Source: Myxococcales bacterium (lineage in GTDB: Bacteria > Myxococcota_A > UBA9042). From it: a stretch of DNA of 32,406 nucleotides. Position numbers and translations under genes: made by a program. The notes under the pieces were generated by a model that saw only the letters and a list, made by a program, of their open reading frames with translations, did not search any database and was not told the DNA's origin. This document shows positions 2,610 through 18,432 of this stretch, piece by piece. The DNA lies in the NCBI GenBank assembly GCA_009692425.1, contig SHZF01000050.1, positions 1-32,406 of the forward strand, in the 5' to 3' direction. Numbering within the stretch: position 1 is the stretch's first letter; every line of letters begins with the position of its first letter.

Positions 2610-5477
2610 TCAACGGGCGACGCGCGCCAACGCCGCCGCCAGCACCCGCCCTGTGTGGCTCGCTGCGACGGTCGCCACCTGCTCCGGTGTGCCAGCCGCC
2701 ACGACGCGACCGCCGCCGCCGCCGCCCTCTGGTCCCAGGTCGACCACCCAGTCCGCCGCGCGCACCAGGTCCATGTGGTGCTCGATGACCAGCACCGTGT
2801 TGCCCTTGTCGACCAACCGCTGCAGCACCTCGAGCAGCTTGCCCACGTCGTCGAAGTGCAGGCCCGTCGTCGGCTCGTCGAGCACGTACAGCGTCCGCCC
2901 CGTGCCGGGCCGCGCGAGTTCCTTGGCCAACTTGATGCGCTGGGCCTCGCCACCGGACAGCGTTGTCGAGGGCTGGCCGAGCGCGATGTAGCCCAGGCCG
3001 ACCTCGGCGAGCGTCTTCAGCACCCGGCCGATCGGCGGGTAGGCCGCAAACAGCGCGCGCGCCTCGTCGACGGTGGTGTCGAGCACGTCGGCGATGCTCT
3101 TGCCCTTCCAGCGCACGGCGAGCGTCGCCTCGTTGAAGCGGCGGCCCTTGCACACCTCGCACGGCACGTAGACGTCAGCGAGGAAGTGCATCTCGATTTT
3201 CAGCACGCCGTCGCCCGAACAGTGCTCGCAGCGGCCACCCTTGACGTTGAAACTGAAGCGCCCGGGACCATAGCCCGCCATGCGCGCGTCCGGTAGCCCC
3301 GCGAACACCTCGCGGATCAGGTCCCACAGCTTGGTGTACGTGGCCGGATTCGAGCGCGGCGTGCGGCCGATCGGTTGCTGGTCGACCTCGATGACCTTGT
3401 CGAACGCTGCGACGCCCTCGACGCCGTCATGGGCGCCGACGGTGTGGGTGGCCCGATGCAGCCGGTTTTGCAGCGTCGGCAGCAAGATGTCGTGCACGAG
3501 TGTCGACTTGCCTGCGCCGGACACGCCGGTGATCGCTGTCAGGCAGCCCACCGCGAGCGCCACGTCGTCGCCGCACAGGTTGTGGGTACGCGGGCCGCGC
3601 ACAGTGAGCCAGCCCTTGGGCGTGCGCCGCCGCTTCGGCACGGGGAGGTGCGCCCGGCCGGACAGGTAGGCGCCTGTGCGCGACACGGGGTGAGCCATCA
3701 CGGTCGCCACGCTGCCCGCCGCCACGACCTCGCCGCCATGCACGCCAGCGCCGGGGCCGAAATCGACCAGCCAATCCGCGGCCAGCAGCGTGTCTTCGTC
3801 ATGTTCGACGACCAGCACGGTATTGCCCAGGTCGCGCAGGCGCTGCAAGGTCTGCACCAGTCGCTGGCTGTCGCGCGGGTGCAGGCCGATGCTCGGCTCG
3901 TCGAGGATGTAGAGCACGCCCGTCAGTTCCGAGCCGACCTGCGATGCCAGCCGGATGCGCTGCGCCTCGCCGCCCGACAGCGTGGCGCCGCCCCGATCCA
4001 GCGTCAGGTAGCCGAGGCCGACGTGGACGAGGAAGCCGAGGCGCCCCAAGATTTCCTTGCGCATCTCGGCGGCAATCAGCGCCTGCGTGGGCGGCAGTTC
4101 GACATCGCGCAGCCAGTCGCGTGCCGTCTCGACTGCGAGCGCCGTGAATTCGCTCAGCGTGCGCTGGCCCACCTTGACCGCGCGCACCTCCGGCTTGAGC
4201 CGGGCACCACCGCACGCATCGCACGCCGCAACCACGAAGAACTTCTGGTACTGCTCGCGCATGTAGTCCGATTGCGTCTCCTTCCAGCGCCGCTCCAATT
4301 GCGGGATCGCGCCCTCGAATTTCGTCGCCCACGAGCCGGCGCCGTGCTTGCCCTCCCACTTGATCTGCACGCGCTCGTCGGTGCCGTACAGCACCAACCG
4401 GCGGTGCGCGGCCGTCATGGCCTGCCACGGCTGGTCGAGGTCGATACCGTGCGAGGCCACCAGGCCGTCGAGGATGCGTCCGGTCCACGAGCCGACATCG
4501 GCCACCGTGTTCCACGCCTCGATCGCGCCCTGCCGCAGCGACTTCGACTCGTCGGGGACGACTGCGCGCGCGTCGATCTTCATCGCAAAACCGAGCCCCT
4601 TGCAGTCGGGGCACGCGCCGAGCGGGCTGTTGAACGAAAAGCTCAGGGGCACCAACGCCTCGAAGCTGCGGTCGCATGCGGTGCAGTAAAGCGCCTCGCT
4701 GAACGCCTTTTCGGTCCACGGCAGGGCGTCGGGGTCGTCGCCGTCGCGCACCACCACGGCGACATCGAGGCGCCCCTTGCCGAGCCGCAGCGCCGTCTCG
4801 ATGGAGTCGATCAGCCGGCGCCGCTCGTCGGGCCGCACGACTGCGCGATCGACCACGAGATCGACGTCGTGCTTCTTGTTCTTGTCGAGCGCGAGGCCCG
4901 CCGCGAGTTCGACGACGGCGCCATCGATGCGGGCGCGCGGCAGGCCCTGTTGCAGAGCGTCTTCGAAGGTGTCCTGGAACGTGCCCTTGCGCTGGCGGGC
5001 CACAGGCGCGAGCACGAGCACGCGGGTGCCGCTGGGCAGTTCCATCAGGGCGTCGGCGATCTGGGCCGGCTCCTGCTTGCCGACCGCCGCACCGCACCCC
5101 GGACAGTGCTGCTGGCCGACGCGCGCCCACAGCACGCGCAGGTAGTCGTAGACCTCGGTGATCGTGCCGACGGTAGAGCGCGGATTGGAGCCGGCCGATT
5201 TCTGCTCGATGGCGATCGTCGGCGACAGGCCGCTGAGCCGATCGTAGACGGGCTTGTCCATCTGGCCGAGGAACTGGCGCGCATACGCCGACAGCGACTC
5301 GACGTAGCGGCGCTGGCCTTCGGCGTACAGCGTGTCGAAGGCGAGCGACGACTTGCCAGACCCCGACGGCCCGGAGAACACGATCAGCTTGTGTTTGGGC
5401 AGCGTGAGGTTGACGTGCTTGAGGTTGTGCTGGGCGGCGCCCGAGATCGTGATGGCGTCGCGCGGGTGGGCGCTCAT
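2610..5477 (-). CDS. uvrA: UvrABC excinuclease subunit A
   Basis: UvrA is the ATPase that scans DNA for bulky lesions and loads UvrB in nucleotide excision repair. Both ABC modules are intact. Walker A boxes are GPSGSGKSS at about residue 36 and GVSGAGKST near 650. Signature motifs LSGGEAQR occur near 500 and 840, followed by Walker B segments ILDEPSIGLH and VLDEPTTGLH. A zinc-finger cysteine set (CTAC...CPDC) lies near 270-295, and the C-terminal zinc module (CEHC...CEVC) near 745-778. The open frame continues 98 codons upstream of 5477, but the family begins just before the ISGAAQHNLK segment and the resulting 955 residues match usual UvrA length, so 5477 is preferred; 5534 is an alternative. 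No strong ribosome binding site is visible. It stands alone on its strand. Confidence 0.95.
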   Translation of the reverse strand: MSAHPRDAITISGAAQHNLKHVNLTLPKHKLIVFSGPSGSGKSSLAFDTLYAEGQRRYVESLSAYARQFLGQMDKPVYDRLSGLSPTIAIEQKSAGSNPRSTVGTITEVYDYLRVLWARVGQQHCPGCGAAVGKQEPAQIADALMELPSGTRVLVLAPVARQRKGTFQDTFEDALQQGLPRARIDGAVVELAAGLALDKNKKHDVDLVVDRAVVRPDERRRLIDSIETALRLGKGRLDVAVVVRDGDDPDALPWTEKAFSEALYCTACDRSFEALVPLSFSFNSPLGACPDCKGLGFAMKIDARAVVPDESKSLRQGAIEAWNTVADVGSWTGRILDGLVASHGIDLDQPWQAMTAAHRRLVLYGTDERVQIKWEGKHGAGSWATKFEGAIPQLERRWKETQSDYMREQYQKFFVVAACDACGGARLKPEVRAVKVGQRTLSEFTALAVETARDWLRDVELPPTQALIAAEMRKEILGRLGFLVHVGLGYLTLDRGGATLSGGEAQRIRLASQVGSELTGVLYILDEPSIGLHPRDSQRLVQTLQRLRDLGNTVLVVEHDEDTLLAADWLVDFGPGAGVHGGEVVAAGSVATVMAHPVSRTGAYLSGRAHLPVPKRRRTPKGWLTVRGPRTHNLCGDDVALAVGCLTAITGVSGAGKSTLVHDILLPTLQNRLHRATHTVGAHDGVEGVAAFDKVIEVDQQPIGRTPRSNPATYTKLWDLIREVFAGLPDARMAGYGPGRFSFNVKGGRCEHCSGDGVLKIEMHFLADVYVPCEVCKGRRFNEATLAVRWKGKSIADVLDTTVDEARALFAAYPPIGRVLKTLAEVGLGYIALGQPSTTLSGGEAQRIKLAKELARPGTGRTLYVLDEPTTGLHFDDVGKLLEVLQRLVDKGNTVLVIEHHMDLVRAADWVVDLGPEGGGGGGRVVAAGTPEQVATVAASHTGRVLAAALARVAR

Positions 5478-5918
5478 CGGTTCGGGCCCAGTTGCGGGAA
5501 AGGCGGAGACGGCGGTGGCGGGCGGCGTCGGCATGGCGAGATCGGGCCGGCACAGGCCGGGGCGGGCGGGCGGAGTGTGCGTGGATACTGAACGGATGTC
5601 CAGTGTGATCGGCGCGTCGCAGTGATCGACCGACGCAATGGAGAACACCGTGAGCGTCATGTCGTGGCACTCTGGATCACCCCAGAACACCTTCGTATTG
5701 TTGTTTTTTCCGACAAGGAGCGCGGCGCCGGGCCGTGCCTCCGGGATGAAGACTTGCGCGCCGCCGAAGACGGTCTACCCGGTCACGAACAGGACGTACG
5801 TTCCCGCGTCCAGGCAGACGAAGTCGAGCTTCGACGCAAGCGGCGCAACAGCCAAGTTGCCGTCGTCGCCGATGCCGCGCGGGGTTGACGCCGCGCCGCC
5901 GGGTTGGTGGGATGAGCC
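5478..5918. other. Divergent intergenic region between uvrA and arfB
   Basis: This 441-base gap separates divergent genes and must hold the promoters for uvrA (leftward) and for arfB and the helicase (rightward). I could not find convincing -10/-35 pairs or an SOS (LexA) box. Most of the interval is occupied by the minus-strand relic described separately. A plus-strand frame from about 5622 to 5888 is also open but has poorer codon bias and a very charged, unrecognisable product. Confidence 0.5.
5583..5840 (-). pseudogene. Coding-like relic with in-frame TAG upstream of uvrA
   Basis: On the minus strand, sequence from about 5840 to 5583 reads as one frame with strong G/C third-position bias and beta-sandwich-like text: LDFVCLDAGTYVLFVTG, then a TAG at 5775-5777, then TVFGGAQVFIPEARPGAAP, VGKNNNTKVFWGDPECHD and LTVFSIASVDHCDAPITLD. 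The frame has no stop of its own and merges into the uvrA frame. The simplest reading is the remains of a secreted protein broken by a nonsense mutation and trimmed at both ends. A chance open frame, or a leader of uvrA, cannot be excluded. The family is not recognised. Confidence 0.4.
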
Positions 5919-6344
5919 ATGACCGACCTCCCCATCCGCCCCGGCCTGACCCTGCCCGCCGCGCTGCTGGAATGGACCGCCGTGCGCGCTTCTGGGCCCG
6001 GTGGCCAGCACGTCAACCGCACATCGACCCGCGTCGAACTGCGCTTCGACCTCGCCAACTGCGCCGAACTGGACGACGGCGCCAAGGCCCGCGTGCGCCG
6101 CTTGGCCGGCCGCCGCCTCGATGCCGACGGCAAGGTGCTGCTGACGAGCCAGTTGACGCGCAGCCAGGACCGCAACCTCGATGACGCGCGGACCCGGTTG
6201 GCCGAACTGGTGGCGCGCGCGTTGGAGCCACCGGTCAAGCGGGTGGCGACGCGGCCGGGCAAGGCGGCAAAGCGGCGCCGGGTCGAGGACAAGCGGCGCC
6301 AAGGCGAGCGGAAGCGGGAGCGCGGCAGTGCCGACGAGCCATGA
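5919..6344 (+). CDS. arfB: Alternative ribosome-rescue factor ArfB (YaeJ/ICT1-like peptidyl-tRNA hydrolase)
   Basis: ArfB enters the A site of ribosomes stalled on non-stop mRNA and hydrolyses the peptidyl-tRNA without a stop codon. The 141-residue protein has the class I release-factor catalytic core with the GGQ tripeptide in ASGPGGQHVNR near residues 28-38. It lacks the codon-recognition domains of RF1/RF2, and it ends in a long Lys/Arg-rich tail (about 108-137). In the family that tail lies in the empty mRNA channel. Length matches the family (about 140). The ATG at 5919 directly follows a plus-strand stop region and needs no extension. The helicase gene starts 25 bases downstream on the same strand, suggesting co-transcription of two RNA/translation genes. 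Confidence 0.9.
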   Translation: MTDLPIRPGLTLPAALLEWTAVRASGPGGQHVNRTSTRVELRFDLANCAELDDGAKARVRRLAGRRLDADGKVLLTSQLTRSQDRNLDDARTRLAELVARALEPPVKRVATRPGKAAKRRRVEDKRRQGERKRERGSADEP

Positions 6345-6369
6345 CCCCACCGCCGCGCGCGAGCCCGTC

Positions 6370-9042
6370 ATGACTGCTCCACCCGACGTGAGCACCGCGC
6401 TTGGCCCGACCCCCACGCCGGCCTCGGCCACGCTTGCCGAACTCCTGCCCGCCACTTGCACGCCATCGACGCTGCTCGACGCCTTTCTCACCTGGACCAC
6501 CGCGCGCGGCCTGACCCTGCATACGCACCAGGAAGAGGCTCTGCTCGCGCTCGCCGAAGGCCATCATCTCGTGCTGGCGACGCCCACGGGCTCGGGCAAG
6601 TCGTTGGTCGCCACAGCCCTGCACTTCTTCGCGCTCGGCCGCCGCGAGCGCAGCGTGTACACGTCGCCGGTCAAGGCGCTCGTCAACGAGAAGTTCTTCC
6701 AACTCTGTCACGACTTCGGCCCGGCATGCGTGGGGCTCGCCACCGGCGACGCGAGCGTGAACCGCGACGCCCCCATCTTGTGCTGCACCGCCGAAATCCT
6801 GGCGAACGACTGCCTGCGCCGCGGGGCCGACGCCGACTTCGACCAGGTCGTGATGGACGAGTTCCACTGGTACGCCGACAGGGACCGCGGCATGGCGTGG
6901 CAGGTGCCGCTGCTCGTGCTGGAGCACGCGACGTTCCTGCTGATGTCGGCGACGCTGGGCGACACCACGACGCTGCAAGCCGACCTCGCCCGCCGCAGCG
7001 GTCGCCCGGTGGCCGTGGTCACATCTGCCCACCGGCCGGTGCCCTTGCACTTCTCGTACAGCGACGTGCCGCTGCTCGATCAGGTGCAGGACCTGCTCAA
7101 AGAAGGCAAGGCGCCCGCCTACGTCGTACACTTCAGCCAGCGCGAGGCGACGGAGACGGCCGCCGCCCTGCTGTCCGTGCCGGTCGCCGACAAGGAGGGC
7201 AAGCGCGCGATTGCGGCCGCCCTGCGCGAAGAACGCTGGCCGACGCCCTACGGCAAGGACTTGCGCCGCCTGCTGCTGCACGGCGTCGGCGTGCACCACG
7301 GCGGCCTGCTGCCGCGCTACCGCCGCACAGTCGAGCGCCTCGGGCAACAGGGACTGCTGCCAGTAATTTGCGGCACCGACACGCTCGGCGTCGGCGTCAA
7401 CCTGCCCCTGCGCACGGTGTTGCTGACGAAGCTGTGCAAGTTCGACGGCGAGCACGCCCGCCTGCTGCAGGTGCGCGAACTGCTCCAGATCGCGGGCCGC
7501 GCGGGGCGCATGGGTTTCGACACCGAGGGCTTCGTCGTCTCGCAAGCGCCCGAGCACGTCATCTGGAACCGCCGGCAGGAAGCGAAGACCGCCAAGGACG
7601 GCCGCCCCAAAGCCTTCGTGCGTCAGAAGCCGCCTGAGCGCGGCTTCGTGCTGTGGACGCGCGACACGTTCGACAAACTCGTCACCGGCAAGCCCGAAGT
7701 GCTGGCGTCGGTGTTCCGCATCGAGGCCGGCCACTTGATGACGGTGCTGCACCGCGGCCAAGGCGTGGGACCGCTGTGCCAGTTGATCGGCAAGAGCCAC
7801 GAGCGGCCCTACGTGCAACTGCAACTGCGCCGAGACCTGGCGCGCCTGTTCCGCTCGCTGCGGCTGGCGGGCGTCGTGACCTTGGTGCCCCGCGCGCACA
7901 AGCCGGGGCGCGACGTCGAGGTGGCCGGCGGCCTACAGCGCGACTTTTCGCTGCACCACACGCTGTCGCTGTGGCTGGTGGACGCGCTGCAACGGTTGCA
8001 GCACGAGTACGCCGCCGCCGCCCGCCTCGACATGGACGAGTCGTACGCGCTCGACGTGGTCGGCCTGTGCGAGGCGATCCTGGAGAATCCGACGGCGATC
8101 CTGTTGCGCCAGCAGAGCCGCGCGAAGGGCGAACTGGTGGCGGCGCTGAAGGCCGACGGCGTGCCCTATGAGGAGCGTATGGAGCGCCTGGAGCACGTGA
8201 CCTGGCCGAAACCGAACGCCGACTGGATCTACGCGACCTTCGAGGACTTCTGTGTGCGCCACCCCTGGGTCGCGCACGAGGCGATCCGGCCCAAGGCGGT
8301 CGCGCGCGAGATGGCCGACGTGTTCACCACGTTCGAGGACTACGTCAAGGACCTCGACCTCGAGCCGATGGAGGGCGTGCTGCTGCGCCACTTGTCACAA
8401 GTCTGGCGCACGCTGCAGCAGAACGTGCCGGAAGCGCGCAAGACCGAGGCCGTGCACGCCATCATCGGCTGGCTGCGGGCGCTGATCGGCCGGGTCGACA
8501 GTTCGCTGGTGCAGGAATGGGAAGCGCTGGCGGACCCCGAGGCGGCGGCGCAACGGCTGCTGGCATTGCAGACCGGCCCTGTGCAAACGGTCGCGGTCGA
8601 TGTGGCGCGCGACGTCAAGGCCTTTCACGCCCGGCTGCGCGCCGAATTGCGGCTGGTGATGCGGGCATTGGCGCTGGGCCAGTGGGAACAAGCCGCCGCC
8701 GGGTTCTGGCAAGGAGGCCCGGCCGCAACCGATGCCGAATCTGCCGGAGAGGCGGGCGACGGTGCGACGTGGGCCGGCGGCATCGACCCCGACACGTTGC
8801 GGGCGGCGGTGGCGCGTTTCGTGGCGGAGCACGGGCCGCTGACGTTCGCGGCGCAGGCCAGGCTGGGCGACGCCGTGCAGATCGCAGGGCAGGGGCGGCG
8901 CCGCTGGCGAGTGCTGCAGACGTTGTATGCCGGCGGCGACGACACCGGCTGGCGACTGGAGGCGGGGGTGGACTTGACGGGCGACGCGGGCGGCGATGGT
9001 CCGCTGTTGCGGTGGGTGGGGCTGGGTCCGGGCGGTACTTGA
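6370..9042 (+). CDS. Ski2-like DEAD/DEAH-box RNA helicase, DUF3516 type
   Basis: This 890-residue protein is an SF2 helicase. Motif I is ATPTGSGKS near residue 75, motif II is the DEFH variant (VVMDEFHWYADRDRG), and motif III is LLMSATL. The second RecA domain carries the arginine motif IAGRAGRMGFDTEG preceded by CGTDTLGVGVNLP. The DEFHWYAD...AWQVPL block and the long C-terminal half resemble the DUF3516 RNA-helicase family, best known from actinobacteria; that assignment is from memory of the family. The C-terminal end (RRRWRVLQTLYAGG...VDLTG) matches where such proteins finish, so it looks complete. The start at 6370 is the first ATG; a GTG at 6328 within arfB is an alternative. RNA unwinding or remodelling is likely; substrate unknown. 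Confidence 0.85.
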   Translation: MTAPPDVSTALGPTPTPASATLAELLPATCTPSTLLDAFLTWTTARGLTLHTHQEEALLALAEGHHLVLATPTGSGKSLVATALHFFALGRRERSVYTSPVKALVNEKFFQLCHDFGPACVGLATGDASVNRDAPILCCTAEILANDCLRRGADADFDQVVMDEFHWYADRDRGMAWQVPLLVLEHATFLLMSATLGDTTTLQADLARRSGRPVAVVTSAHRPVPLHFSYSDVPLLDQVQDLLKEGKAPAYVVHFSQREATETAAALLSVPVADKEGKRAIAAALREERWPTPYGKDLRRLLLHGVGVHHGGLLPRYRRTVERLGQQGLLPVICGTDTLGVGVNLPLRTVLLTKLCKFDGEHARLLQVRELLQIAGRAGRMGFDTEGFVVSQAPEHVIWNRRQEAKTAKDGRPKAFVRQKPPERGFVLWTRDTFDKLVTGKPEVLASVFRIEAGHLMTVLHRGQGVGPLCQLIGKSHERPYVQLQLRRDLARLFRSLRLAGVVTLVPRAHKPGRDVEVAGGLQRDFSLHHTLSLWLVDALQRLQHEYAAAARLDMDESYALDVVGLCEAILENPTAILLRQQSRAKGELVAALKADGVPYEERMERLEHVTWPKPNADWIYATFEDFCVRHPWVAHEAIRPKAVAREMADVFTTFEDYVKDLDLEPMEGVLLRHLSQVWRTLQQNVPEARKTEAVHAIIGWLRALIGRVDSSLVQEWEALADPEAAAQRLLALQTGPVQTVAVDVARDVKAFHARLRAELRLVMRALALGQWEQAAAGFWQGGPAATDAESAGEAGDGATWAGGIDPDTLRAAVARFVAEHGPLTFAAQARLGDAVQIAGQGRRRWRVLQTLYAGGDDTGWRLEAGVDLTGDAGGDGPLLRWVGLGPGGT

Positions 9043-13592: not shown

Positions 13593-13861
13593 GGCAAACT
13601 CAGAATAGCCGCACCGGGCGGCGAAGGGCCGGGAACCTAGCCCTGCGCTGCGGGGCTGTCGAGAGCTTTTTTGCGGGTGGGCAGCGTCGCGTACGGCCAG
13701 GCCCATGTGCGTCGCGTCGGGCCCGCGGCGACTGCCGGTGCCGCGCCCACGCCAGCACGCTAGGGCAGGCAGGTGGCTTCGGCAAGTGTCTCGTCAAGTT
13801 CTGATTCGTCCGGCTCCTGCGCTTGCCGGTCGCCCCCATCGCCCCTAGCCTGTCGCTGCCC
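13593..13861. other. Divergent intergenic region, pyruvate kinase-like operon / permease fusion
   Basis: This 269-base gap separates divergent transcripts and should carry both promoters. Reading leftward, TATTCT lies about 10 bases before the 13592 ATG, which would put transcription almost at the start codon if it is a -10 box; no matching -35 is clear. A T-run at 13667-13672 follows a short AGCCC/GGGCT inverted repeat, but no plus-strand gene ends here. Confidence 0.3.
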
Positions 13862-16159
13862 ATGACGCCCTTCGAACCCGCCGCCATCCGAACCGCCGCT
13901 GCCAGCCCAGCCCGCGATGCCCCAGCCCCCCGTGGCCTGTCGCGGTGGGGGGCGCTCGCGTTCGTCATGGGCTCGATGGTGGGCGGCGGCATCTTCCTGA
14001 CGCCAGACAGCGTGGCCGGTGCGGTCGGGCGCGGCGGCCTGTACTTCTCGCTGTGGGGCCTGGGCGCGGTGACGGCGCTGCTGGGCGCCCTGAGTCTGGC
14101 AGAACTGGGCGCCATGTTCCCGCGCGTCGGTGGGGAGTACGTGTACCTGCGCGAGGCGTATGGAGACTTCCCCGCGTTTCTGTACGGCTGGCTGTCGCTG
14201 GTCGGCTCGTTTTCGGGCGCCATCGCGATGCTGTGCCTGACGGCGGCGACGACGCTGGTGCCAGCCGGCCGCGTGCCCGGCGGGGCCAAGGTCGCCGCGC
14301 TCGCGTTCGTGTGGGGCCTGACCGCGCTGGCGTGCCTGCGCATCGCGGTCGCTGCCCGCGCCCAACTGGCCTTGACCGGTGGGTTGATGGCCATCTTGCT
14401 GGGCGGCGCCCTCTGGGCCTTGCTGGCGGGCGCGCCCGACGTGCCGGTGGCCGTGGCCGCGCGCATCGACCGCGGCGAACCGTTGGCCGTGCTGACGGCA
14501 TTCACGGGCATCTTTTTTGCGTACTCCGGCTGGAATGGCGCGACCTATGTGGCCGGCGAACTGGAGCGTCCCCAGCGCGACCTGCCGTGGGCACTGGTGG
14601 CGGGCACGGGCCTCGTCGCAGGGCTCTACCTCGCGCTGAATGCGGCGTTCGTGCTGCTGGCTCCCCGGTTGGGTAGTGGGGCGGCCGGATACCTGCTCAT
14701 CGACGACCTGCGCCTGCCCGTTGCTGGGCTCGTGCCGGTGCTGCGCGCATTGACCGGGCTGTGCATGGTCGGCGCCGCGCTGGCGGCCATCGTCACCGGG
14801 GCCCGCATCGTGCAGGCGATGGCCCACGACGGCCTGTTCGTGCGCGCCGTCGCCCCCGTGGACCCGCGCCTGGGCACGCCGGTGCGGGCGCTGGTGGTGC
14901 AGGCCGCGTGGTCGTCGGTGCTGGTCGTCGCCGCCGACTCGTTCGGTACGCTGATGCTGCTGTCGTCGTCGGCGATGATGCTGCTGTCGATGGGCACGGT
15001 CGCGGCCGTGCCCTGGCTGCGCTGGCGGCGGCCCGAACTCGCGCGCCCGTTTGCCCTGCCAGGCTATCCGTGGACCGCCCTCGCCTACCTGACCGTGACG
15101 GCCGCGGTACTGGTGGCGCTCGCCATCGAGGACGTGCAGTCGCTGGCCTACGGGCTCGGCACCGTGGCGGCGGGATGGTGCGTCTTTGCGCTGCGGGCGC
15201 GGATCGTGGCACGGGCGGCCCACCTCGCCGGCACCGCCGTTCTCGTGACGGCCGCCGTTCTCGTCGCATCTCCCGCCGAGGCTACGGCCGGCACCCCGCT
15301 GCGCGCACCCGCCATTGCGCTCGCTGCGGTTCCGACTCCGACGGCCATGCCGATGCTGCGCTGGGTCGACCGCCCCGCTGGCCACGAGCACCTCGACACG
15401 CCGGTGATCCGAATGCGCGGCCCCAACGGTGTCCAGCTTGAACTCGTCGGCGCCCTGCACATCGCGGACCGGGCCTACTATCGGGCGCTGCAACAGCGCT
15501 TTGCCTCGTATGACCGGTTGCTCTACGAGATGGTCAAGCCACCCGAACTCGACATGGCCCGCGCACGCGGACCCGCCGACGCCAGCGCGCTGTCCGGCCT
15601 GCAACGGATGCTGAAGGATGCGCTGGCCCTCGAATTCCAGCTCGACGCGATCGACTACGGTCGGGCCAACTTCGTCCACGCCGACGTCGATCCGGAGCGG
15701 CTGGGCGCCCTGTTGCTGGAGCATGCTGGCGCGATGGTGGGCGCGCTCGTGCGGTTCGCGATCCTCGACGCCAGCCGCACCGTGTACGCCGACGGCACGC
15801 CCCGGTTGGGAGGCCTGGGCCTGATCGGAGCGCTGCTGGCCGGCGGCACTGCACCGCAGCGCGCCCGCGAACTCAAACGGGCATTGGCCCGCGAACTGGC
15901 TGAGATGGACGGCGGCATGGCCGAACTCGGTGGGTTCGCTGGTCTTGCGGGCCTCGGGCCGGCGCTGATTGGTGAACGCAACCAGGTCGCGGTGGACGTG
16001 CTGAAGCAGGTGCTGGCTGCCGGCGGAGTGCGCAAGGTGGGGATTTTCTACGGCGCCGCGCACCTGGGCGACCTGGAGCGGAGAGTGCGCGGGCTTGGGT
16101 TCGTGCGGGTGGGGGCCCAGTGGATGGCGGCTTGGCGGTTGGGGGCTGGCGCACGCTGA
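13862..16159 (+). CDS. APC-family amino-acid permease fused to a TraB/GumN-like domain
   Basis: A single 765-residue frame carries two unrelated modules. Residues about 28-445 form an amino acid-polyamine-organocation permease with roughly 12 membrane segments: the unwound TM1 signature GSMVGGGIFLTP at 37-48, FFAYSGWNGATYVAGE in TM6, and basic/acidic inter-helix loops. Residues 453-470 form a thirteenth hydrophobic segment ending PAEATAG, like a signal sequence or cleavage site. Residues about 500-760 match TraB/GumN-type proteins: VQLELVGALHIADRAYY with the first GxxH, LLYEMVKPP, IGERNQVAVDVL and IFYGAAHLGDLE with the second GxxH. Thirteen segments would place this domain outside the membrane. 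The ATG at 13862 is preferred over TTG at 13823. No stop lies between modules; an in-frame GTG at 15206 could also start a separate secreted protein. Substrate unknown. Confidence 0.85.
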   Translation: MTPFEPAAIRTAAASPARDAPAPRGLSRWGALAFVMGSMVGGGIFLTPDSVAGAVGRGGLYFSLWGLGAVTALLGALSLAELGAMFPRVGGEYVYLREAYGDFPAFLYGWLSLVGSFSGAIAMLCLTAATTLVPAGRVPGGAKVAALAFVWGLTALACLRIAVAARAQLALTGGLMAILLGGALWALLAGAPDVPVAVAARIDRGEPLAVLTAFTGIFFAYSGWNGATYVAGELERPQRDLPWALVAGTGLVAGLYLALNAAFVLLAPRLGSGAAGYLLIDDLRLPVAGLVPVLRALTGLCMVGAALAAIVTGARIVQAMAHDGLFVRAVAPVDPRLGTPVRALVVQAAWSSVLVVAADSFGTLMLLSSSAMMLLSMGTVAAVPWLRWRRPELARPFALPGYPWTALAYLTVTAAVLVALAIEDVQSLAYGLGTVAAGWCVFALRARIVARAAHLAGTAVLVTAAVLVASPAEATAGTPLRAPAIALAAVPTPTAMPMLRWVDRPAGHEHLDTPVIRMRGPNGVQLELVGALHIADRAYYRALQQRFASYDRLLYEMVKPPELDMARARGPADASALSGLQRMLKDALALEFQLDAIDYGRANFVHADVDPERLGALLLEHAGAMVGALVRFAILDASRTVYADGTPRLGGLGLIGALLAGGTAPQRARELKRALARELAEMDGGMAELGGFAGLAGLGPALIGERNQVAVDVLKQVLAAGGVRKVGIFYGAAHLGDLERRVRGLGFVRVGAQWMAAWRLGAGAR

Positions 16160-16308
16160 AATCAGAATCCACCACCCAAGTCCTTCCCGGTCCGTCGAGA
16201 TGGGCCCATATCGGCGGATCCGGGGAAATAAACACCCTTGCCACCCCACCGGAGCCGCGCCACCATCCGCCGCTCGCGGACCCCCACGTTCTCCGCGCGG
16301 GAGGTCCC

Positions 16309-18432
16309 GTGGCCCGTTTCATCGCCCCGCACCCGCTCGTCTGCTGTACCCGGCTGACGACGCTGGCCGTGCTGCTCGTGAGCGCACCTGCCGCCGCCGC
16401 CGCCCCGCCGGTGTCCGCCGCCACCCAACCGCTGGCCACGCCACCGCCCACGGGGCCCGGCCCCTTCTGCCTGAACGTGCCGCGCGCGGCCTTCAACCGC
16501 GGGGCCGTCGCGCTCGACCTGCCGATTTTCTGGATCGCGGACGCCGACAACGACGGCAAGCTCGGGCCCGCCGAACTCGTCGTGCTGTGGCGCGCGGGAG
16601 AACCGGCCGGGCAATGGAAGCGAGCAGACGACGGCAAGGGGAGCGCCGCGGCGTTCGGCCCCGACTTCCAGCGCGCCTGCGACGACCCACGCTGGCTGGC
16701 CGTCGACGCCAACGCCAAGGCCGTGCTCTCGCCCGAATCCAAGCGTCAGGCCGCGCTCTCGCCCGAATCCAAGCGCCAGGCCGCGCTGCGCCGCGAACTG
16801 GACCAGGGCCGGCCGACCGTCGTGCTCACCGACCTCAGCCAGGCCAGCGCAGTCGACCGGGCGTTTGTAGGCCACATGCTCCAAGCCGCGGGCCTCGTCG
16901 AGCGATTGCACGCGCGCCAGAACGGTGTATTGGGCGTGGCAGACCGCATCGGCGGCGACGACATGCTGAGCCGCGCCGTGTTCCGCCGCAACCAGGGCCC
17001 GCAGTGCGAGGCGCCGGCCACCGAACGCGACAAGGACTGCTCGGCGCTGCCGGAGCGCCCGGCCCGCACGTCGGGGCTGTATCCGGCCAAGCTCCTGACC
17101 GACAAGAAGTTCTGCGACAAGCTCGCCGAGCGCAAGGACGGTGCCGAACTCCTGCACCAATTCCACGTGGTCATCGAGGCCCGCAACGGCGAGCCCAGCG
17201 CCGTGCCGTACCACGAGGCGTTCAAGGACGACATGCAGGCCGTCGCCCAAGCGCTGCAAGCCGCCATCGCAGCCCAGACCGACCCGAAGGAAGAGGCGCT
17301 GCGCACCTATCTGCGCGCCGCCGCCAAGGCTTTTCGCGACGACACGTGGTTCCAGGCCGACGAGGCGTGGGCGAAGATGAACGCCGACAACTCGCGCTGG
17401 TACCTGCGCATCGGCCCCGACGAGACCTACTTCGAGCCGTGCAGCCGCAAGGCGGGTTTTCACGTCAGCTTTGCCCGCATCGACCCGTCGGCGCTGCACT
17501 GGCAGCGGTTGCTCGACCCGCTCAAGAACGAGATGGAGCAGGCGATCGCCGCCCTGGCTGGGCCGCCGTATGCCGCGCGCACGGTCGCGTTCCACCTGCC
17601 GGACTTCATCCACATCGTCGTCAACGCCGGCGATTCGCGGTCGGCGCTGGGCGCCACGGTCGGCCAGAGCCTGCCGAACTGGGGTCCGGTCGCCAACGAG
17701 GGCCGCGGCCGCACCGTCGCGATGACGAACCTGTACACCGATGCCGACAGCCGCTTGGCCCTGCGCGGCCAGGCGCAGTCGCTTTTCTGCCCGCAGGCCA
17801 TGGAGACGTTTGTCGACGCTGTCGGCCCGCAGGTGATGTCGACCGTGCTGCACGAAGCCGCCCACAACCTCGGACCGGCGCACGAATACCAGGCGTTCGG
17901 CAAGACCGACGACGCGGCGTTCGGCGGTCCGCTGGCGTCGACGCTCGAAGAACTGAAGGCGCAGACGGCGGCGCTGTGGTTGACCGACTGGCTCGAGCAG
18001 AAGGGCAAGCTGACCGATGTCGAACGCCGCCGCGCGCACACCGCCGACTTCGCGTGGGCGATGGGACACATCTCGAATGGGATGTGGTCGAAGGAGGGCA
18101 AGCCGAAGCCCTACAGCCAACTCGCGGCGATCCAGATCGGCTTCCTGCGGCGGGAAAAGGCCATGATCTGGTTCGAAGAGGCGGCGGCGAACGGCAAGGA
18201 CTTCGGGTGCTTTGAAATCCGCCACGAAGCGATGCCGGCCGCGCTCGAGAAGCTGATGCGGCTGGTGGCGGGCATCAAGGCGCGCGGGGACAGGAAGGGG
18301 GCGGAGGCCTTGGTGGCTGCGTTCGTCAAGGGCGGCGACGCGACGTGGAAGAAGGTGCGCGACAAGGTGATCGTGGAGCGGTGGCAGCGGGTGCCAAAGT
18401 CGGCGTTTGTTTATGGGGTCGAGGGGTTGTAG
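16309..18432 (+). CDS. Exported M49-like (DPP III family) zinc metallopeptidase with EF-hand loop
   Basis: GTG at 16309 is the start: GGGAGG lies about 4 bases upstream and the protein opens with a basic then hydrophobic signal peptide ending near VSAPAAAAAPP. A perfect EF-hand calcium loop, DADNDGKLGPAE, spans residues 78-89. The zinc site is HEAAHN at 515-520 (HExxH) with a second Glu pair in LEELKAQ at 546-552, as in gluzincins; the arrangement LHEAAHNLGP...TLEELKA resembles peptidase M49-like bacterial proteins, which usually have EEAKAD. The Asp is Gln here. The chain is 707 residues, similar to DPP III. A 10-residue unit is duplicated near 138-157. Likely periplasmic or surface peptidase; substrate unknown. 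No operon partner. Confidence 0.72.
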   Translation: MARFIAPHPLVCCTRLTTLAVLLVSAPAAAAAPPVSAATQPLATPPPTGPGPFCLNVPRAAFNRGAVALDLPIFWIADADNDGKLGPAELVVLWRAGEPAGQWKRADDGKGSAAAFGPDFQRACDDPRWLAVDANAKAVLSPESKRQAALSPESKRQAALRRELDQGRPTVVLTDLSQASAVDRAFVGHMLQAAGLVERLHARQNGVLGVADRIGGDDMLSRAVFRRNQGPQCEAPATERDKDCSALPERPARTSGLYPAKLLTDKKFCDKLAERKDGAELLHQFHVVIEARNGEPSAVPYHEAFKDDMQAVAQALQAAIAAQTDPKEEALRTYLRAAAKAFRDDTWFQADEAWAKMNADNSRWYLRIGPDETYFEPCSRKAGFHVSFARIDPSALHWQRLLDPLKNEMEQAIAALAGPPYAARTVAFHLPDFIHIVVNAGDSRSALGATVGQSLPNWGPVANEGRGRTVAMTNLYTDADSRLALRGQAQSLFCPQAMETFVDAVGPQVMSTVLHEAAHNLGPAHEYQAFGKTDDAAFGGPLASTLEELKAQTAALWLTDWLEQKGKLTDVERRRAHTADFAWAMGHISNGMWSKEGKPKPYSQLAAIQIGFLRREKAMIWFEEAAANGKDFGCFEIRHEAMPAALEKLMRLVAGIKARGDRKGAEALVAAFVKGGDATWKKVRDKVIVERWQRVPKSAFVYGVEGL
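16721..16780 (+). repeat. 30-bp tandem duplication inside the M49-like gene
   Basis: Two adjacent 30-bp units (16721-16750 and 16751-16780) differ at only two positions and encode AVLSPESKRQ and AALSPESKRQ. The unit preserves frame. This looks like a recent in-frame slippage duplication in a linker between the EF-hand region and the catalytic part. Confidence 0.95.

Follow-up and report, generated by a model that had tools for sequence, protein, structure and literature searches.

An amino-acid permease fused in frame to a TraB/TIKI-type module, next to an M49 peptidase gene, in a Myxococcota_A bacterium

Introduction

Among the closest described counterparts of the locus presented here are the heteromeric amino-acid transporters of animals, in which an SLC7 light chain is paired with a heavy chain of the SLC3 family, as in LAT1-CD98hc. 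APC transporters in general have their C-terminus inside. SLC3 heavy chains first appear in metazoans, and a lysine in TM5 (Lys154 in the bacterial transporter BasC) is conserved in human LATs and BasC (PMC6472337).

The TraB/TIKI proteins are the second family involved. They range from bacteria to animals, and only a minority of the bacterial members have a known substrate; TIKI superfamily members of known activity cut peptide or ester bonds, and TraB members can also act in ways other than as proteases. PrgY and TraB are thought to degrade a pheromone peptide outside the cell (PMC7117660), whereas Tiki and RRSP are endopeptidases, the site of RRSP being 2His/2Glu and metal-independent (PMC6254334). 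The M49 dipeptidyl-peptidases III with PDB entries 5zum and 6eom, which concern the neighbouring gene, come from Corallococcus and Caldithrix, respectively (PMC9820243, PMC5805324).

Here we describe a gene in which an APC-type permease and a TraB/TIKI-like module form one polypeptide. It lies in a window (the whole stretch of DNA analysed) of 32,406 nucleotides, contig SHZF01000050.1 of assembly GCA_009692425.1, from a Myxococcales bacterium (Myxococcota_A; UBA9042). The domains themselves are known; neither their combination nor its way of arising was found described in the literature searched, where no earlier report of an APC-TraB fusion turned up either; to an initial reading of the window from sequence only the domain combination had likewise been unfamiliar.

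Results and discussion

The fused gene

The gene occupies positions 13862-16159 of the window on the + strand as a single open frame of 765 codons plus a stop, with no stop codon between the modules. In the 765-residue protein the permease comes first, followed by a thirteenth hydrophobic segment, a linker and the TraB/TIKI-like module:

13862..15208, + strand: APC/AA_permease_2 amino-acid permease module, residues 1-449, 12 predicted TM helices (Pfam, PDB sequence and fold matches)
15215..15271, + strand: thirteenth hydrophobic segment, residues 452-470, after RARIVAR on the cytoplasmic side (hydropathy; alignment with 13 stand-alone signal peptides)
15275..15283, + strand: A472-E473-A474, an AxA motif where signal-peptidase I might cut ahead of T475 (AxA counts in fused and stand-alone relatives)
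15284..15346, + strand: Ala/Pro-rich linker (low confidence in the model, residues 470-491 with pLDDT <50)
15347..16156, + strand: predicted periplasmic TraB/TIKI-like module, residues 496-765 (identity to 14 homologous modules; fold matches)
15458..15460, + strand: H533 of the first GxxH motif, GALH (invariant, 15 sequences)
15527..15529, + strand: E556, in YEM (invariant, 15 sequences)
15977..15982, + strand: R706-N707, in ERN (invariant, 15 sequences)
16061..16063, + strand: H734 of the second GxxH motif, GAAH (invariant, 15 sequences)

That one frame joins a whole permease to a complete TraB/GumN-like module, as the sequence-only reading had claimed, was borne out by the 765 open codons, by the recovery of the permease with Pfam and by that of both domains with alignment and AlphaFold. 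The AlphaFold model of the full protein (mean pLDDT 83, pTM 0.66) shows the 12 permease helices, then a long helix that ends at residue 469 and, starting near residue 500, an alpha/beta domain of its own; the linker falls below pLDDT 50, so that the relative placement of the two domains in this model is unreliable. An 829-codon open frame also runs antisense to the whole fusion gene (13760-16249, - strand), as expected of a high-GC coding sequence.

Openness of the frame was considered as proof of fusion and rejected: the window has 70% GC, its six-frame stop density is 0.0103 per codon, and the chance of 60 stop-free codons is about 0.54. The case is built instead on the total lack of stop codons between the modules together with a second fused genome. 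A member of a second genus of the same family (G004) carries an equivalent in-frame fusion, with 49% identity along the full protein. There, one frame on contig C92 alone covers the permease from about residue 360 onwards and all of TraB; the remainder of the permease is on C118, whose final 141 bp are identical to the first 141 bp of C92. With no stop between the modules, ribosomes that complete the permease must run into the second module. Moreover, GC3 remains high, as is typical of coding DNA, across the junction both in the source genome of the window (G000) and in G004. Since both are draft assemblies of many contigs, one could suspect that an assembly or base-calling artefact removed a stop codon; however, the independent occurrence of the same fusion in another genus and the unbroken coding signal make such an artefact extremely improbable, and an assembly slip was rejected because G004 has the equivalent fusion. 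We conclude that a permease, presumably of the inner membrane, and a TraB/TIKI-type module are truly joined in frame in this gene.

The permease module

Pfam AA_permease_2 (PF13520) matches residues 26-425 with E 1.6e-43 (149.7 bits, cut-off 27). The closest PDB sequence matches are LAT1, b0,+AT and BasC, and the AlphaFold model of the permease, when compared with y+LAT1, displays the 12-TM LeuT/APC fold (y+LAT1, Z 48.6, 3.0 A over 432 residues; LAT1, Z 46.7). BasC shares the APC fold: 6F2G aligns over 416 residues at 24% identity (Z 38.8), and 9H76, with L-Ala, gives Z 40.1. It differs in having no ectodomain.

The TM7 tyrosine of LATs (BasC Tyr236) is present as Y256, an equivalence assigned via alignment with LAT1 and b0,+AT, and is Tyr in 36 of 38 aligned permeases. 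The TM5 lysine is absent: the window permease has Leu175 at this position, where 28 of the 38 permeases have Pro and just 3 have Lys. The window permease is thus not a standard LAT and, because the TM5 lysine is replaced, it may couple to ions or exchange its substrates in a different way.

No second AA_permease_2 gene was found in the source genome, which is 96% complete. In the permease tree the sequences of G000, G002, G003 and G004 form one supported clade, in which only those of G000 and G004 are fused. The unfused permease gene of G002 (L052, 6579-7919) is interrupted by a TAA in frame where a Tyr is conserved (GGDYVYL) and may be a pseudogene or contain a base error.

The TraB/TIKI-like module

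The Pfam profile TraB_PrgY_gumN (PF01963) matches the window protein weakly (15.6-19 bits, below the gathering cut-off of 26.8; E 0.015 at 15.6 bits). L055, a relative with about 51% identity to the module, scores 29.6 bits, above that cut-off, and E<=0.1 is reached by 9 of 15 relatives. Identity between the module and its 14 homologues, 13 of them stand-alone and one fused, is 42-53%. H533, E556, R706, N707 and H734 are invariant across the 15 sequences, in fused and free forms, so that the two GxxH motifs, the conserved Glu and the Arg by which TraB/PrgY/GumN proteins are recognised are all found; the two GxxH, YEM and ERN motifs were those already picked out from the sequence, and their invariance, the score of L055 and the modest TIKI-type fold matches agree with the TraB/GumN-like identity proposed at that time.

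A model of the isolated domain (pLDDT 82) matches ChaN (Z 6.2), EreC (5.0), BcR135 (4.9) and RRSP (4.5), all modest values below Z 8, its best fold match being a Tetrahymena complex IV subunit (Z 8.7-9.3). We base the TIKI assignment on the high rank that several genuine TIKI members reach and on the invariant H533, E556, R706-N707 and H734, which together support the second module as a putative TraB/TIKI-type peptidase-like domain. A sequence search of the PDB with the TraB profile gave nothing relevant and no TIKI member, and hhalign against E. coli YbaP gave only a short weak match near the first GxxH motif. With TraB/PrgY of the Enterococcus pheromone plasmids, Tiki, RRSP, EreC and ChaN the module shares the H...E...H core motifs and, to judge from the modest matches, a similar fold, at very low sequence similarity, and none of these proteins is described as fused to a transporter. 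The earlier suggestion that TraB/GumN proteins are metal-dependent need not hold, one TIKI-family enzyme being metal-independent (PMC6254334).

A signal peptide within the chain

Hydropathy places the thirteenth segment at residues 452-470, practically where it had been proposed (453-470). In 13 relatives the module is a separate secreted protein of ~280-330 residues with a clear Sec signal peptide, and the fused segment aligns in position with these 13 signal peptides. Arginines stand before it, and the sequence after it is S-P-A-E-A in the window and L-P-D-A-A-L-A in G004. Because the stand-alone relatives carry their own signal peptide at the matching position, the alignment identifies the segment as the retained signal peptide of a once-separate TraB protein, an origin that the sequence-only reading missed. 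Since the permease C-terminus would be inside, the second module should lie in the periplasm, in support of the outer-face placement already suggested.

All four fused proteins known in the class have an AxA motif behind the segment, and 11 of 13 stand-alone forms have one behind the signal peptide, compared with 24% of 991 permease hydrophobic segments. With this site kept, the module may be released by signal peptidase rather than tethered. The chain would then be a polyprotein from which signal peptidase I, cutting after A474, frees a soluble periplasmic TraB protein as in the relatives, and the fusion would merely secure a 1:1 supply and shared expression. Besides the counts just given, both diverged fusions retain the AxA and a Pro/Ser-containing c-region. 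On the other hand, AxA comes cheaply in alanine-rich sequence, the fused cases are just four, and internal signal peptides behind 12 TM helices are not commonly cleaved; we consider such processing possible, for the chain as well as for the supply role of the fusion, though we would rather expect that it does not occur.

A free secreted TraB could also be produced in addition to the fusion from an internal start in the same frame (GTG 15206 in the window, TTG in G004). These in-frame start codons sit before complete signal-peptide-like sequences, with a GGGGGG stretch upstream of the TTG of G004, but no good ribosome-binding site precedes 15206 and the start codon positions do not correspond between the two genomes, which leaves this second product very unlikely.

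Distribution and origin

The TraB subfamily is present in 15 of the 22 genomes of the family, one copy per positive genome, with 2 of the 15 copies fused. It was not found in the remainder of the class; three weak matches appeared elsewhere in the phylum sample, and no copies of the module were found on plasmids. Across 379 genomes of the phylum, with two candidates scored per genome, no further such fusion was seen among the matches listed, and a contig scan with fusion-derived patterns returned permeases only (including some from Myxococcota and Deltaproteobacteria MAGs) and no TraB module.

In G000 and G004 the sole TraB-subfamily copy found is the fused one, and because no other copy was found in either, the fusion replaces the separate TraB gene, as judged from these assemblies. 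The PF01963 profile at E<=0.001 had no match in G000, the fused module itself included, so that a very divergent second TraB could have escaped it. Homologues encoded as two separate genes, which the sequence-only reading had named as a result that would count against the fusion, do occur in relatives, though the two loci are not linked there and no stop stands at the junction. As neither the order within the permease clade nor the TraB tree is resolved, the two fused genes may stem either from a single ancestral fusion, followed by separation, or from two fusion events.

Fusions to an unrelated secreted domain

Two other genomes of the same class encode permeases fused to a different domain, which we named YPFSGxD in the present analysis, since it has no name of its own; it has ~350-400 residues and no match above the Pfam cut-off. 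In G043 (L086:82-2739) an APC permease continues in frame via a signal-peptide-like segment into YPFSGxD, and in G034 (L126:3266-5926, - strand) an APC permease is likewise fused to a YPFSGxD ectodomain, with a lipobox-like IGGC at the junction. These permeases fall on two different branches of the permease tree. Kinship of YPFSGxD with the TraB module is not supported, no relation being detectable.

Free copies of YPFSGxD are, by their sequence, secreted proteins. Their genes adjoin related permease genes on the same strand in G039 (L127), G201 (L108) and G333 (L196), abutting in G039 and G201; the two genes are divergent in G332 (L166) and G281 (L193) and convergent in G098 (L198) and G225 (L197), and a free YPFSGxD gene also adjoins a permease in G378 (L171). 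From this arrangement the family looks like a permease partner. Because the fusions of G043 and G034 involve an unrelated domain, the joining of permeases to secreted proteins has, on the gene structures, happened more than once in the class. A wider proposal, which we put forward with doubt, is that the class has a recurrent way of making amino-acid permeases with an ectodomain on the same chain, in which the signal peptides of neighbouring secreted proteins serve to capture these proteins (TraB/TIKI-like in one family, YPFSGxD in two others), as functional counterparts of animal heteromeric transporters in which periplasmic peptide processing is handed directly to the transporter.

The same data bear on whether the TraB fusion could be a neutral accident, two unrelated genes joined by chance loss of a stop, with modules that work as before and are uncoupled. 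The patchy distribution (2 of 15 TraB copies) and trees that leave a shared origin of the two fusions unresolved would suit such an event; nevertheless, two genera at 49% identity retain the fusion with all key residues intact, parallel fusions exist within the class and the fused gene is the only TraB-subfamily copy found, and we regard mere accident as quite unlikely.

The adjoining peptidase gene and a proposed mechanism

One further feature of the window lies directly downstream of the fusion:

16309..18432, + strand: predicted secreted M49 dipeptidyl-peptidase III-like metallopeptidase gene, with HEAAH ... EELKAQ (5zum and 6eom matches; adjoins TraB in relatives)

This gene begins 150 bp after the fusion on the same strand and encodes 707 residues with a signal-peptide-like N-terminus. 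The protein matches the DPP III of Corallococcus (5zum, 3.6e-15) and Caldithrix (6eom, 5.6e-13), and both the HExxH zinc and the EExxA motifs are found, HEAAH aligning with HELMH and EELKA with EEAKA of 5zum. It is homologous to the Corallococcus enzyme, with the same pentapeptide HExxH motif, and differs from it by the signal-peptide-like sequence and an extra N-terminal region. As a conserved partner of TraB, an M49 gene follows the separate TraB gene in seven relatives (G002, G003, G005, G009, G013, G016 and G020), and is on other contigs in G004 and in genus g8. The upstream neighbour of the fusion encodes a pyruvate-kinase-barrel protein on the opposite strand; elsewhere in the window are a DEAD-box helicase gene with DUF3516 (6181-9042) and, on the strand opposite to it, UvrA (2610-5690).

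Given the activities known in the TIKI superfamily, an amino-acid permease and a secreted dipeptidyl-peptidase, periplasmic breakdown of peptides with uptake of the products is the simplest account, and the adjacency of M49 suggests a one-piece device for peptide trimming and product uptake. The reading that we prefer, tentatively and with somewhat less than even confidence, is that of a permease with a periplasmic peptidase-like ectodomain that trims or binds peptides, with M49 aiding and the permease importing amino acids. A permease gene would have landed upstream of a secreted TraB gene and the stop and start between them would have been lost, the TraB signal peptide thereby turning into the thirteenth membrane segment. 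Tethered in the periplasm at the mouth of the permease, the ectodomain would trim or bind peptides, its presumed substrates, the secreted M49 enzyme from the next gene would break these down further and the permease would take in the released amino acids, which amounts to peptide scavenging. The idea of a transporter coupled to peptide cleavage, raised from the sequence, gains support in this way from the adjoining secreted M49 gene, while catalysis and coupling stay conjectural. Against our preferred reading stand the resemblance of the thirteenth segment to a cleavable signal peptide, the location of M49 on another contig in G004 and the fact that 2 of the 4 permeases of the clade are unfused.

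Alternatively the ectodomain, like the animal heavy chains CD98hc and rBAT, might stabilise, position or regulate the permease, or sense peptides, with no need of catalysis. The permease does match SLC7 light chains best, in sequence and fold, and an unrelated domain is fused at the equivalent place in G043 and G034 and found beside permeases elsewhere, so that the common factor may be the permease; yet the TraB active-site residues are invariant in fused and free proteins, and the free TraB forms are secreted with no permease nearby, and we hold a purely ancillary role to be unlikely.

Comparison with described systems

The fusion together with the adjoining dipeptidyl-peptidase gene is a concrete lead that the TraB subfamily may act on peptides bound for uptake. 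The fused protein resembles the animal heteromeric transporters in combining a 12-TM APC module with an extra TM segment that would hold a large ectodomain on the outer face, and SLC7 proteins are the closest in the PDB to its permease module. It differs from them in being one polypeptide and in having a TraB/TIKI-like ectodomain instead of the amylase-like one of SLC3; the resemblance is one of layout and not of kinship between the ectodomains. The parallel YPFSGxD fusions suggest that APC permeases of bacteria are able to bear periplasmic partners of their own; otherwise this layout is known from the heteromeric transporters of animals.
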